From Treponema sp. (lineage in GTDB: Bacteria > Spirochaetota > Spirochaetia > Treponematales > Treponemataceae), in assembly GCA_016288205.1 (NCBI GenBank), contig JAEEYO010000007.1, forward strand, positions 62,001-126,000: a stretch of DNA of 64,000 bases. The letters are read 5' to 3'. Made by a program: the position numbers and the translations under genes. Position 1 is the first letter of the stretch; every line of letters begins with the position of its first letter. Under the pieces are notes generated by a model, which was not told the origin of the DNA, searched no databases, and saw nothing but the letters and a program-made list of their open reading frames with translations. Of the stretch, positions 3,933-34,641 are shown piece after piece.

Positions 3933-5543
3933 TCAGACGTTAGTCTCCTTATATTCGCGGGGTGAAAGCCCCGTGTTTTTTTTGAAGATGTAGCTGAAAT
4001 AATGCGGGTCAGAAAATCCGCAGTCATAGGCAATGTCGTAGCCCTTCATGTCGGTTTCACGCAAAAGACGCTTCGCATTCTCAATTCTGACGTTCGTAAG
4101 ATACTCGATGAAAGTCATCTTGCATTCCTGAGAGAAAATCGTGCTGAAATGATTGGGACTCAGGGCAACGGCCTCCGCCACAGTTGTGAGGGTCGTGTTC
4201 TGATCCGCGTAATTTTCCTCGATGAATCTTTTTGCCTTCAAAATGATGCCGCCGTATTTTCCGGTCATCTTTGAGTCACGGTAGTCAAGCGCGAAGGAAA
4301 GAAGCTGCTCCATGTTGCGAGAGAAATTCTCCTCGTTCTGCACCGCCTCATCCACAAATTTTCTCTGGAGGATTTCCGGTTTAAGCTCCTTGATGTTGCC
4401 GCCGAGTTTTTCCACGAGCTTGGAGACCGCAAAAATCAAATCCACAAGCAGATAGGAGGCGAACACATTGAACTGTCCCGGATTTTTTTTGATGAGCTCC
4501 AGGGACTCCTCCTTGATTGCGGCGATGTCATTCCGGCTCGCATATTTCAATCTGTCCACCAGCGGGTCATTTTCCTTTAAATCAAGAAGGGCAGAATCGA
4601 AGGCCGCGCCGTTTTCCTCAGAGGACTCATCCGACTCCAAATCCTCCGAGCTTATGATCCGGTTTTGCGCTCCGTCATTTTCTATTTCCAAAATGTGTTT
4701 TGCATCGGCGTAGGAAAGACTCAGCTGCGAAAGATGCTCCACAGTTTTTCCGATTGCCGAGAGAACCGCGCAGTCATCATTTTTTGTCGCAATATGTGCG
4801 ATCGCCTCAGCCGCATGGAAAACGCTTTCGTCAAGTTCATCACGTGAGCTTCCCTTGAAAATGCACACAAGAAGATTTGAGTGATGAAAAAAACATTCCG
4901 CCTGCTGCCATGCCGCGGAGTACGAGTTGAGCAACGAGCATGCTTCCTGCTGATTCTGGGAATTTCCTGTCCGGCTTTGAATCCTGCTTATGAGCACTTT
5001 GTAAAAGCGTGAAATAAGATTCAGACCAAGGTCCTGACTTTTTTGCATCACGTCCGACATCGGCTCAGATCCATGCACGAGGTTGTTGAGGAATTCTTTT
5101 TTCTTGAGCATCTCAGAAGACTTCAGCTCTTCCTTCAGGCGTGAGATGTCCGAAAGCTGCTTTCTCTCCTTGTCAATCTGGAGGGCTGTTTTGCTCAGAC
5201 TTGAAATCAACTCATCGGGCGTAAAAGGCTTTAGAAGATAATCCTCAATTCCAATTGAAATTGCTTTTTTCGCATAATCAAATTCATCGTGGCCGGAAAG
5301 AATGATTATTTTAATCCAGGGCTGAATGCGTTTCACGGCGGCGGAAAGCTCAAGTCCGTCCATAAAAGGCATCTTGATGTCAGTAATCAGAATGTCGGGT
5401 TTGAGCTCCTGAATCATCGAAAGCGCAATCTCTCCGTCAGAAGCCTCACCGACAAAAGTAAAGCCCTGTGACTCCCAATCAATCTTGGACCTTATGCCCT
5501 CAAGCACAATAGGCTCGTCATCTACCGCAAACACGCTGTACAT
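3933..5543 (-). CDS. Response regulator with AraC-type DNA-binding domain (YesN-like)
   Basis: 536 residues. An N-terminal receiver domain carries acidic D8/D9, phospho-acceptor D55 (ILITDIKMP) and K105 (YLLKPF). A long middle region of unknown fold follows, then a C-terminal double helix-turn-helix of the AraC family from about residue 435 (YADQNTTLTTVAEAVALSPN ... GFSDPHYFSYIFKKNTGLSP). Its ATG overlaps the kinase stop by one base (TAATG), so the two are translationally coupled. Cytoplasmic. It probably activates the convergent importer operon when phosphorylated by the neighbouring kinase; this target is inferred from position and from the YtfQ-like sensor in the same operon. Confidence 0.9.
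   Translation of the reverse strand: MYSVFAVDDEPIVLEGIRSKIDWESQGFTFVGEASDGEIALSMIQELKPDILITDIKMPFMDGLELSAAVKRIQPWIKIIILSGHDEFDYAKKAISIGIEDYLLKPFTPDELISSLSKTALQIDKERKQLSDISRLKEELKSSEMLKKKEFLNNLVHGSEPMSDVMQKSQDLGLNLISRFYKVLISRIQSRTGNSQNQQEACSLLNSYSAAWQQAECFFHHSNLLVCIFKGSSRDELDESVFHAAEAIAHIATKNDDCAVLSAIGKTVEHLSQLSLSYADAKHILEIENDGAQNRIISSEDLESDESSEENGAAFDSALLDLKENDPLVDRLKYASRNDIAAIKEESLELIKKNPGQFNVFASYLLVDLIFAVSKLVEKLGGNIKELKPEILQRKFVDEAVQNEENFSRNMEQLLSFALDYRDSKMTGKYGGIILKAKRFIEENYADQNTTLTTVAEAVALSPNHFSTIFSQECKMTFIEYLTNVRIENAKRLLRETDMKGYDIAYDCGFSDPHYFSYIFKKNTGLSPREYKETNV
3956..3983 (+). terminator. Intrinsic terminator of the sugar-importer operon, inside the 3' end of the opposing gene
   Basis: CGCGGGG (3956-3962) and CCCCGTG (3969-3975) form a 7-bp stem with one G-U pair and a 6-nt loop, followed by eight T (3976-3983) on the plus strand. 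It ends the ytf operon while also encoding the last residues of the convergent response regulator. Confidence 0.65.
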
Positions 5544-31147: not shown

Positions 31148-31236
31148 TTCATGCCGCAAGCCTCCGCTTTCCATTCCACTTTTTTCTCCCACCCCCTAGA
31201 ATAATTTTGCATTTTGTGATAAAGTAGATTTTCGAT

Positions 31237-31329
31237 ATGAACGCGTGGACGAATAAAGACAAATGCAGGCTCTCAGTATGTACGGTTAAAAATGTCTTTA
31301 TTTATTTGCGTTTCTTTTTTGGAAGCTGA
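31237..31329 (+). CDS. Candidate carB leader peptide (30 codons)
   Basis: ATG to TGA, 30 residues ending VFIYLRFFFGS. Its last ten codons lie in a strikingly T-rich run (31297-31320) and the stop codon falls inside the left arm of the terminator hairpin. This is the design of the E. coli pyrBI leader, where slow transcription through a U-rich tract couples to translation. No ribosome site; a -10-like TAGATT (31225-31230) ends 6 nt before the ATG. Confidence 0.5.
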   Translation: MNAWTNKDKCRLSVCTVKNVFIYLRFFFGS

Positions 31330-31356
31330 ATTCATTATTGGATTCAGTTTTTTTTT
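31326..31356 (+). terminator. Intrinsic terminator (attenuator) in the carB leader
   Basis: CTGAATTC (31326-31333) pairs with GGATTCAG (31340-31347), with one G-U pair, a 6-nt loop and nine T (31348-31356). It stands 37 nt upstream of the carB ATG, so it must be bypassed for carB expression. Confidence 0.8.
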
Positions 31357-31392
31357 GCCCTTTGTATTTTTTTATTGTAAGGAGAAATAGAT

Positions 31393-34300
31393 ATGAAGCG
31401 AACGGACATCAACAAGGTTCTTATAATCGGCTCAGGTCCGATTGTAATCGGTCAGGCATGTGAGTTTGACTATTCGGGAACGCAGGCATGCAAGGCTTTG
31501 CGCGAGCAGGGATACAAGATTGTGCTGGTGAACTCAAACCCGGCGACCATTATGACCGACCCGGTGATGGCCGACGCGACATATATTGAGCCGTTGAACG
31601 TGGAGCGGCTTTCCCAGATTATTGACAAGGAGAGGCCCGACGCCCTGCTTCCGAACCTTGGTGGACAGACCGGACTTAACCTTGCGTGTGAGCTCAACAA
31701 GGCTGGTGTCCTTGATAAATACGGCGTAAAAGTAATCGGCGTAAACCTTGATGCCATTGAGCGCGGTGAGGACCGAGAGATTTTCAAGGAGACCATGCAG
31801 AAGCTCGGAATCGCAACTCCGAAAAGCGACATCTGCCACACGGTCGAGGGTGCCGAAAAGATTGCCGCCGACATCGGATTCCCGGTTGTTGTACGTCCCG
31901 CTTACACCATGGGAGGCCAGGGAGGAGGATTCTGCTACAACGTGGAGGAGCTCCGCAACATCGTCTCAAACGGTCTTGATTTGTCCATGACCCGCCAGTG
32001 TCTGATCGAGCAGAGCATTTTGGGCTGGGAGGAGCTTGAGGTAGAGGTTGTCCGCGACTCAAAGAACCAGATGGTCGCAATCTGTTTTATCGAGAACATT
32101 GACGCAGTCGGAGTGCACACGGGTGACTCATTCTGCTCCGCTCCATTCATGACCATAGACAAGGCCCTTGAGGAAAGACTCAAGGAAATGGCGTTCAAGA
32201 TTGTAGAGTCCATCGGAGTCATCGGCGGAACCAACGTGCAGTTCGCACACAATCCGAAGACGGGCGAAGTTGTGATTATCGAAATCAACCCGAGGACAAG
32301 CCGCTCATCAGCACTCGCATCAAAGGCAACAGGATTCCCGATCGCATTGATTTCAGCAAAGCTCGCATCCGGTCTTACCCTGGACGAGATTCCGTATTGG
32401 CGCGACGGAACATTGGAAAAGTATACGCCGGGTGGAGCACCTGACGGAGATTATGTTGTCTTGAAATTCGCACGCTGGGCATTTGAGAAATTCCGCGGCA
32501 CAGAGGATTCCCTTGGAACGAGCATGAAGGCTGTCGGTGAAGTGATGGCTATCGGAAAGACATTCAAGGAGACATTCCAGAAAGCGATCCGTGGTCTGGA
32601 GAACGGAAGAAGCGGACTTGGATTCGCAAAGGACTTCAACAAGAAATCCGCCGACGAGCTTTGTGAGATGCTCAAGACAGCGTCAAGCGAAAGATACTTC
32701 CAGCTGTATGAGGCAATCCGAAAGGGTGTCCCAATCAAGAAACTGCATGAAATCACCTACGTGAAGGAATACTTTTTGGAGCAGATGAAGGAGCTCGTTG
32801 ATTTGGAGGAGGAGATGCTCAAGACTCCGGGAAGGCTCCCTGCGGATGAGCTTTTGATCAAGGCGAAGAAAGACGGATTTAGCGACAAGTATCTTTCAAA
32901 GATTCTCAAGGTCAGCGAGAAGTCAGTACGCGACAGAAGGAAGGAGCTCGGTGTGCGTGAGGCATGGCTTGCGGTTCCGGTAAGCGGCGTTGAGAATGCG
33001 AACTACTATTATTCGACATACAACAGCGAGGACAAATCCACTGCGAGCGACAACAAGAAAAAGATTATGATTTTGGGCGGCGGTCCGAACAGAATCGGTC
33101 AGGGAATTGAGTTTGACTACTGCTGCTGTCACGCGGCAATGCAGCTCAAGGAAATGGGTTACGAGACAATCATCGTGAACTGCAACCCGGAGACTGTCTC
33201 CACCGACTATGACACATCCGACAAGCTTTACTTCGAACCTGTCACAACCGAGGACGTGCTCCAGATTTACGAGAAGGAAAAACCGTTCGGCGTTATCGTT
33301 CAGTTCGGAGGACAGACACCTCTCAACATCGCGCGCGAGCTTCAGGAAAACGGCGTGAACATTCTGGGAACAAGCATTGACTCAATCGACATCGCTGAGG
33401 ACCGTGACCTGTTCCGCAAGATGATGGACAACCTGAACATCCCCATGCCCGAGAGCGGAATGGCTGTGGACTTCGACGAGGCAAAGGCAATCGCAGAGAA
33501 AATCGGATTCCCGATCATGATCCGTCCGAGCTTCGTTCTTGGCGGACGCGGAATGGAAGTCATCTACGACGAAAAGAATCTCCGCGAGTATGTGGAGAAG
33601 GCAGTCGGTGTAACCCCGGATAGACCTCTTCTGATTGACCGCTTCCTGAAAAACGCGCTTGAGTGTGAGGCGGATGCTTTGGCGGACTCAACCCACGTTT
33701 ACATCCCTGCCGTCATGGAGCACGTCGAGCTTGCGGGAATCCACTCAGGTGACAGCGCGTGTGTGCTTCCTCCCGTGAACATCCCACAGAACAATCTGGA
33801 CACAATCAAGGAATACACGAAGAAGATTGCGGAAAACCTCCACGTGTGCGGTCTCATGAACATGCAGTACGCGATTGAGGACGGAAAGGTCTATGTGATT
33901 GAGGCAAATCCGCGCGCTTCAAGAACGGTTCCTCTTGTCTCCAAAGTCTGCGACACACAGATGGCACGTCTTGCAACCCGCATGATGCTCGGCGAGTCAC
34001 TTGAGAGCCTGGGATTGAAAGACAAAGTGATTCCGTATCATGGCGCGAAAGAGGCTGTCCTTCCTTGGGCAAGGTTCCCCGGAGTAGACCCGATTCTTGG
34101 ACCCGAGATGCGTTCCACAGGTGAGGTGCTCGGACTGGCTGAGTCATTCCCGCTCGCTTTTTACAAGGCACAGGAGGCATCGGGCTCACCGCTCCCGCAC
34201 GCACCCGCAGCATGGGAAAACAAAAAGGTTCTTATCAGCCTGAGCAACAAGGAAAACTTGAAGGACCAGGTTCTGACCGTCGGAAAGACACTCAAGGATT

Positions 34301-34641
34301 TGGGATTCACTTTGGTCGCCACACAGGGAACCGCAGACTTCTACAACAAGAACGGAATCAAGTGCGATGTCGTGAACAAGCTCGGTGAGGGTCGCCCCGA
34401 CGTAATCGACATGATTATGAACAAGGAGGTCTGTCTTGTAATCAACACGCCCAAGGCACAGAGAAATTATGCCGAGGACAGAAAGACAATCCGAAAGGCA
34501 TGTCTCAAGTACAAGGTGAGCTACATCACGACTCTGGCCGGTGCATTGGCTGCGGTTCAGGGAATTGCTGCGGTGAAAAATGGCCTTGGCGGCGAGGGCG
34601 GCGTTAAGTCCCTGCAGGAATACCACAGCTTGATTAAATAA
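31393..34641 (+). CDS. carB: Carbamoyl-phosphate synthase large subunit CarB
   Basis: 1082 residues, the full length of the family. Two tandem ATP-grasp halves: KVLIIGSGPIVIGQACEFDY opens the first and KIMILGGGPNRIGQGIEFDY (about 555) the second, with a C-terminal MGS-like allosteric domain (about 945-1075). PAYTMGGQGGG and RPSFVLGGRGM are the ATP loops. Makes carbamoyl phosphate for pyrimidines and arginine. carA is not in the window. AAGGAG precedes the ATG; expression is probably attenuated in the leader. Confidence 0.97.
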   Translation: MKRTDINKVLIIGSGPIVIGQACEFDYSGTQACKALREQGYKIVLVNSNPATIMTDPVMADATYIEPLNVERLSQIIDKERPDALLPNLGGQTGLNLACELNKAGVLDKYGVKVIGVNLDAIERGEDREIFKETMQKLGIATPKSDICHTVEGAEKIAADIGFPVVVRPAYTMGGQGGGFCYNVEELRNIVSNGLDLSMTRQCLIEQSILGWEELEVEVVRDSKNQMVAICFIENIDAVGVHTGDSFCSAPFMTIDKALEERLKEMAFKIVESIGVIGGTNVQFAHNPKTGEVVIIEINPRTSRSSALASKATGFPIALISAKLASGLTLDEIPYWRDGTLEKYTPGGAPDGDYVVLKFARWAFEKFRGTEDSLGTSMKAVGEVMAIGKTFKETFQKAIRGLENGRSGLGFAKDFNKKSADELCEMLKTASSERYFQLYEAIRKGVPIKKLHEITYVKEYFLEQMKELVDLEEEMLKTPGRLPADELLIKAKKDGFSDKYLSKILKVSEKSVRDRRKELGVREAWLAVPVSGVENANYYYSTYNSEDKSTASDNKKKIMILGGGPNRIGQGIEFDYCCCHAAMQLKEMGYETIIVNCNPETVSTDYDTSDKLYFEPVTTEDVLQIYEKEKPFGVIVQFGGQTPLNIARELQENGVNILGTSIDSIDIAEDRDLFRKMMDNLNIPMPESGMAVDFDEAKAIAEKIGFPIMIRPSFVLGGRGMEVIYDEKNLREYVEKAVGVTPDRPLLIDRFLKNALECEADALADSTHVYIPAVMEHVELAGIHSGDSACVLPPVNIPQNNLDTIKEYTKKIAENLHVCGLMNMQYAIEDGKVYVIEANPRASRTVPLVSKVCDTQMARLATRMMLGESLESLGLKDKVIPYHGAKEAVLPWARFPGVDPILGPEMRSTGEVLGLAESFPLAFYKAQEASGSPLPHAPAAWENKKVLISLSNKENLKDQVLTVGKTLKDLGFTLVATQGTADFYNKNGIKCDVVNKLGEGRPDVIDMIMNKEVCLVINTPKAQRNYAEDRKTIRKACLKYKVSYITTLAGALAAVQGIAAVKNGLGGEGGVKSLQEYHSLIK

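Follow-up and report, generated by a model that had tools for sequence, protein, structure and literature searches.

The window analysed here, a 64-kb stretch of a Treponema contig, contains the carbamoyl-phosphate synthase gene carB1, preceded by a promoter, a short leader ORF, a U-rich tract and an intrinsic terminator (Table 1). Since the gene upstream of the leader lies on the opposite strand, the carB transcript most likely begins in the gap and must cross the terminator. Direct reading of the sequence confirmed the anatomy described by the initial annotation and its coordinates. The 30-codon ORF was correctly placed and encodes the peptide MNAWTNKDKCRLSVCTVKNVFIYLRFFFGS from its ATG at 31237 to the TGA at 31327 to 31329; its T-rich 3' part contains 18 T in 24 positions (31297 to 31320); and the terminator, reported as strong with an 8-bp stem and T9, is formed by CTGAATTC (31326 to 31333) and GGATTCAG (31340 to 31347), with 8 pairs including one G-U, so that the stop codon lies within its left arm. 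T9 (31348 to 31356) is followed by 36 nt up to the carB ATG. The folded terminator has 10 pairs and a free energy of -11.8 kcal/mol (z -6.9). Four strong terminators, all on the plus strand, were found by a scan of the window, and the carB terminator is the only one of them with an ORF of 13 to 40 codons ending at the stem; it was absent from the output of a simple consensus terminator scan of the same window.

Table 1. Features of the carB1 leader region (positions in the window)
Feature	Position	Strand	Basis
Sigma-70-type promoter, TAGAAT-17-TAAAGT	31197..31225	+	Sequence; 46 dereplicated leaders
Leader ORF, 30 codons, no Shine-Dalgarno, predicted leaderless	31237..31329	+	Sequence; stop position in relatives
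5' arm of predicted long-range hairpin, beginning in the leader start codon	31239..31261	+	Window fold; relatives
3' arm of predicted long-range hairpin, immediately 5' of U6	31293..31314	+	Window fold
U-rich tract ending in U6 (31315-31320), predicted UTP-sensitive pause region	31297..31320	+	Sequence; 46 leaders
Intrinsic terminator (attenuator): 8-10 bp stem, loop, U9	31326..31356	+	Sequence; fold; covariation
carB Shine-Dalgarno, AAGGAG	31379..31384	+	Sequence
carB1, carbamoyl-phosphate synthase large subunit	31393..34641	+	Sequence; homologues

More than 20 genomes of the genus encode orthologues of carB1 at 83 to 99% identity, and nearly all of these carry the promoter, the short ORF, the U tract and the terminator upstream. 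Of 146 genomes of the genus, 106 gave a match to a covariance model of the element at an E value of at most 0.01, the weakest matches consisting of little beyond the terminator and not being trusted, and the position before a car gene was confirmed in 77 genomes. At 83 of the 92 loci checked the downstream gene is a car gene: about 70 times carB1, 8 times carB2, a paralogue 42% identical to carB1 (leaders L177, L178, L192, L194, L198, L200, L202 and L208), and 5 times carA, within a carA-carB2 operon (L183, L185, L187, L196 and L206); the two carB paralogues were separated by identity, the automatic 'best' label confusing them when both E values are zero. In a wider sample of the order the element was present in 3 of 83 genera, all within one family. 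The conservation across the genus removes chance as an explanation of the layout; moreover, the ORF and the U tract are kept in related treponemes, and the lack of conservation that the initial annotation had named as the outcome that would defeat its proposal did not occur.

The surroundings of the leader vary. Outside the spirochaetes, close relatives of CarB1 are encoded in Fibrobacter, Kiritimatiellae and Lachnospiraceae genomes, which suggests that carB1 has been horizontally transferred; the carB loci of these relatives were looked over for the leader motif, which was not seen there, with terminators near some of them. The leader occurs two or three times in some genomes, with the copies lying a few kilobases apart or at different loci and sometimes accompanied by a carB remnant (L181 and L184 in G063, L164 and L173 in G107, L159 and L170 in G109, L294 to L296 in G210), and these multiple copies suggest duplication or insertion at the leader. 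Mutually related ORFs that by sequence appearance resemble the KilA-N type lie between leader and carB1 or directly 3' of an orphan leader (L139, L150, L161, L163 and L184). Before a second carB (L293, G000:C63), as well as in L028, the promoter is followed almost immediately by a strong hairpin and a U run with no separate leader ORF, perhaps another type of attenuator, and L022, L202 and L295 combine the leader ORF with a GGGGAC-type hairpin.

The arrangement of the leader was examined in 46 dereplicated sequences. In 44 of these the first in-frame stop falls within -10 to +16 nt of the terminator stem, where shuffled sequences would give 4.6 (nominal P = 7e-49, a value that overstates independence because the leaders share descent), while in the other two frames a stop occurs at the stem in 0 and 1 of the 46. 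The U fraction before the stem is 0.56, compared to 0.30 elsewhere in the leader and 0.40 in shuffles, and A drops from 0.38 to 0.21; since U rises while A falls, the enrichment is strand specific and does not reflect AT richness. A run of at least 5 U is present in 40 of the 46 leaders. The terminator hairpin has a mean free energy of -15.3 kcal/mol and, in an alignment of 22 leaders, is the sole consensus structure returned by RNAalifold, with compensatory changes at 6 of its 10 pairs. The leader peptides are highly variable in both sequence and length, most having 20 to 38 codons. Substitutions favour the third codon position (379, versus 196 and 167 at the others), which is weak evidence of coding because synonymous changes barely exceed the neutral expectation (0.23 versus 0.19); from such comparisons, it seems that the translation of the leader matters more than the peptide encoded. 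Some 30 nt downstream of the ATG, most leaders also share a conserved motif of Ile-Leu-Lys codons, GATTCTCAA, which reads GGCTCTCAG at 31268 to 31276 of the window and for which neither a pairing partner nor a role was found.

In 37 of the 46 leaders the -10 box lies exactly 11 nt before the ATG, with a promoter spacer of 17, and an SD-like motif precedes the ORF in only 2; this spacing, together with the absence of a Shine-Dalgarno sequence, predicts a 5' UTR of 3 to 5 nt and a leaderless start, the transcript of the window leader being predicted from the promoter to begin at about 31232 to 31234. Leaderless starts look normal in this genome, as the -10 boxes of its carA (L292) and pyrF (L307) lie 7 nt before the start codon, and leaderless messages may be common in the genus. 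In CADCCO010000080.1 (L042, near position 3999) the leader is missing and carB begins at the position of the leader's ATG (TTTTTTTAGT-ATGAAACG), with a promoter of the same type before it. An ATG-to-ATG deletion would have this result, and the locus may represent a natural loss of the leader.

A second structural element, which the initial annotation had not noticed, involves the start codon itself. The 5'-terminal AGTATGAA of many leaders is able to pair with TTCATACT directly before ATTTTTATTT, and in others different sequences still pair (AGTATGGA/TCCATACT, ATGAAAACTG/CGGTTTTCAT, TAATATGAGTG/CACTTGTATTG and AGTATGAAGA/TCTTCATGCT). The mean probability that the AUG is paired with the region before the U tract is 0.78, versus 0.32 in shuffles, and exceeds 0.5 in 38 of the 46 leaders; the combined duplex P across leaders is 5e-18 (nominal), and a cruder earlier test on 25 leaders was suggestive only. 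The window departs from this pattern: its AUG remains largely unpaired (0.30), the predicted stem starts only at the final base of that codon, and in the fold of the window leader the helix is no better than shuffles, so that its significance in the window itself was rejected and the claim rests on the relatives. The hairpin could act as a pause stabiliser, as a start-codon trap or as a limit on late ribosome loading. According to PMC9291695, results at E. coli pyrL argue against stabilisation of the pause by a hairpin; thus, if the spirochaete hairpin acts on pausing, it would differ from E. coli.

We judge it reasonably probable that the element attenuates transcription in a ribosome-dependent way, in the manner of pyrBI, and so sets carB expression by pyrimidine supply. 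Transcription would begin 3 to 5 nt before the leaderless 30-codon ORF, which would be translated. When UTP is plentiful, the polymerase would outrun the ribosome across the U tract, the terminator would form and carB would be off; when UTP is scarce, the polymerase would wait in the U tract and the ribosome would catch up and reach the stop at the base of the stem, where, by covering the 5' arm, it would block the stem and allow carB to be transcribed. Termination would in this way respond to UTP, by analogy with pyrBI. In a test for segments complementary to the 5' arm of the terminator, the leaders paired no better than shuffled sequences (mean z 0.41, 0 of 46 significant, combined P about 1), which excludes an antiterminator switch; with Arg codons scarce as well, the only means left for control is the ribosome footprint, as it is in pyrBI. 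The occurrence of the element before three different car genes also counts in favour of a pyrBI-kind attenuator. On the other side, a ribosome released early would free the hairpin, since the ORF ends at the stem base and not beyond it.

Of the UTP-controlled carB expression proposed by the initial annotation, the attenuator and its link to car genes were borne out by comparison of the leaders, which supports the promoter position, the leader ORF, the stop at the stem, the U tract and the terminator. UTP itself is a likely signal, being the best inference from the U tract, the near absence of Arg codons and the lack of an antiterminator and of PyrR or Rfam motifs; factors other than UTP can also shift the spacing between ribosome and polymerase, which counts against the UTP reading. 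A general pyrimidine regulon was considered and rejected: the pyrBI-type leader was not found at the genome's own OTCace-family (pyrB/argF) genes or its own pyrF, and most carA loci are also without the layout.

It is possible to hypothesize, tentatively, that the decision is instead a race on a leaderless message, in which the 5'-terminal start codon is captured by the segment emerging just before the U tract. At high UTP, a fast polymerase would let the trap form while no ribosome had yet loaded, so that the leader ORF would be closed and termination assured; at low UTP, a slow polymerase would let the ribosome enter first. The decision would then fall at initiation of leader translation and not at ribosome catch-up alone.

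A rival reading that we consider rather unlikely keeps the anatomy and the coupling to translation, with an attenuator that senses a signal other than UTP, such as the capacity for leaderless initiation or the general growth rate. All the anatomical evidence fits it equally, and the lack of a Shine-Dalgarno sequence with a sequesterable start codon makes initiation an obvious control point; however, the strand-specific U tract is present in nearly every leader, including the G+C-richer L181, L189 and L191, and the use of the element before carbamoyl-phosphate synthase genes points to pyrimidines. We regard as improbable that the terminator is simply leaky, or serves as a source of a small RNA or peptide, without regulated readthrough: termination would yield a leader RNA of about 120 nt regardless, but the stop stays at the stem, in a single frame, despite large sequence change, and the element precedes each of carB1, carB2 and carA.

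The two remaining alternatives fare worse. A protein- or ligand-binding leader, either a PyrR site or a riboswitch, is very unlikely: parts of the leader are strongly conserved, including the unexplained GATTCTCAA motif, but a PyrR binding loop, sought by its consensus, was found in 0 of 85 leaders, Rfam gave no match at gathering score in the window, and the consensus structure is the terminator alone. Arginine synthesis is also fed by carbamoyl phosphate and argG is present in the window genome, yet an attenuator of the trp/his type for arginine or another amino acid, with control codons and antiterminator, is the least credible reading, as Arg codons are absent from 37 of 44 leaders, which speaks against arginine control, the leaders share no run of one amino acid and antiterminator complementarity does not exceed shuffles.

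UTP attenuation through coupling of translation and polymerase is known mainly from enterobacterial pyrBI, and a search of a limited literature collection on attenuation of car genes in spirochaetes found no paper. The treponeme element is real and the first interpretation was right in kind, with UTP the likely signal. If the pyrBI-kind reading is true, a lineage-wide spirochaete version, with three car genes, a leaderless ORF and a start-codon hairpin, would indicate more than one origin, or more than one spread, of the principle, and the approximately 85 natural leader variants would provide a series for testing how ribosome and polymerase timing decides termination.

Among known systems, the Bacillus pyr operon likewise controls pathway genes by leader termination, but PyrR attenuation there depends on an antiterminator together with a PyrR binding loop, and a search of the spirochaete leaders found neither. 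The trp/his attenuators share with them a leader ORF, a possible pause hairpin and an intrinsic terminator, and differ in their control codons and antiterminator hairpin. E. coli carAB P1 concerns the same enzyme and a pyrimidine signal through UTP; its control lies at the promoters, by UTP-dependent reiterative initiation and regulators (review PMC6245113), and not at a leader terminator. The closest likeness is to E. coli pyrBI, whose principle of a UTP-dependent polymerase wait in the U tract is attributed, in PMC4824070 and PMC5021804, to Roland, Liu and Turnbough (1988). Both have a short leader ORF with a U-rich stretch shortly before an intrinsic terminator, which precedes a gene of the carbamoyl phosphate/pyrimidine pathway (carB or carA in spirochaetes, pyrB in E. 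coli), and neither needs an antiterminator or control codons; sequence comparison found in the spirochaete leaders a positioned ORF that contains the U-rich tract and reaches the stem of an intrinsic terminator. The layout is thus pyrBI-like in kind, as the initial annotation had proposed, but not exactly that of pyrBI, as it had also stated. The pyrL ORF (L306) has 44 codons and a Shine-Dalgarno sequence and reads through the terminator to a stop 47 nt past the stem start, whereas three departures from it are apparent from the sequences of the spirochaete leaders: a stop at the stem base, a predicted leaderless AUG with no Shine-Dalgarno sequence and, in most of them, pairing of that AUG with the segment before the U tract.
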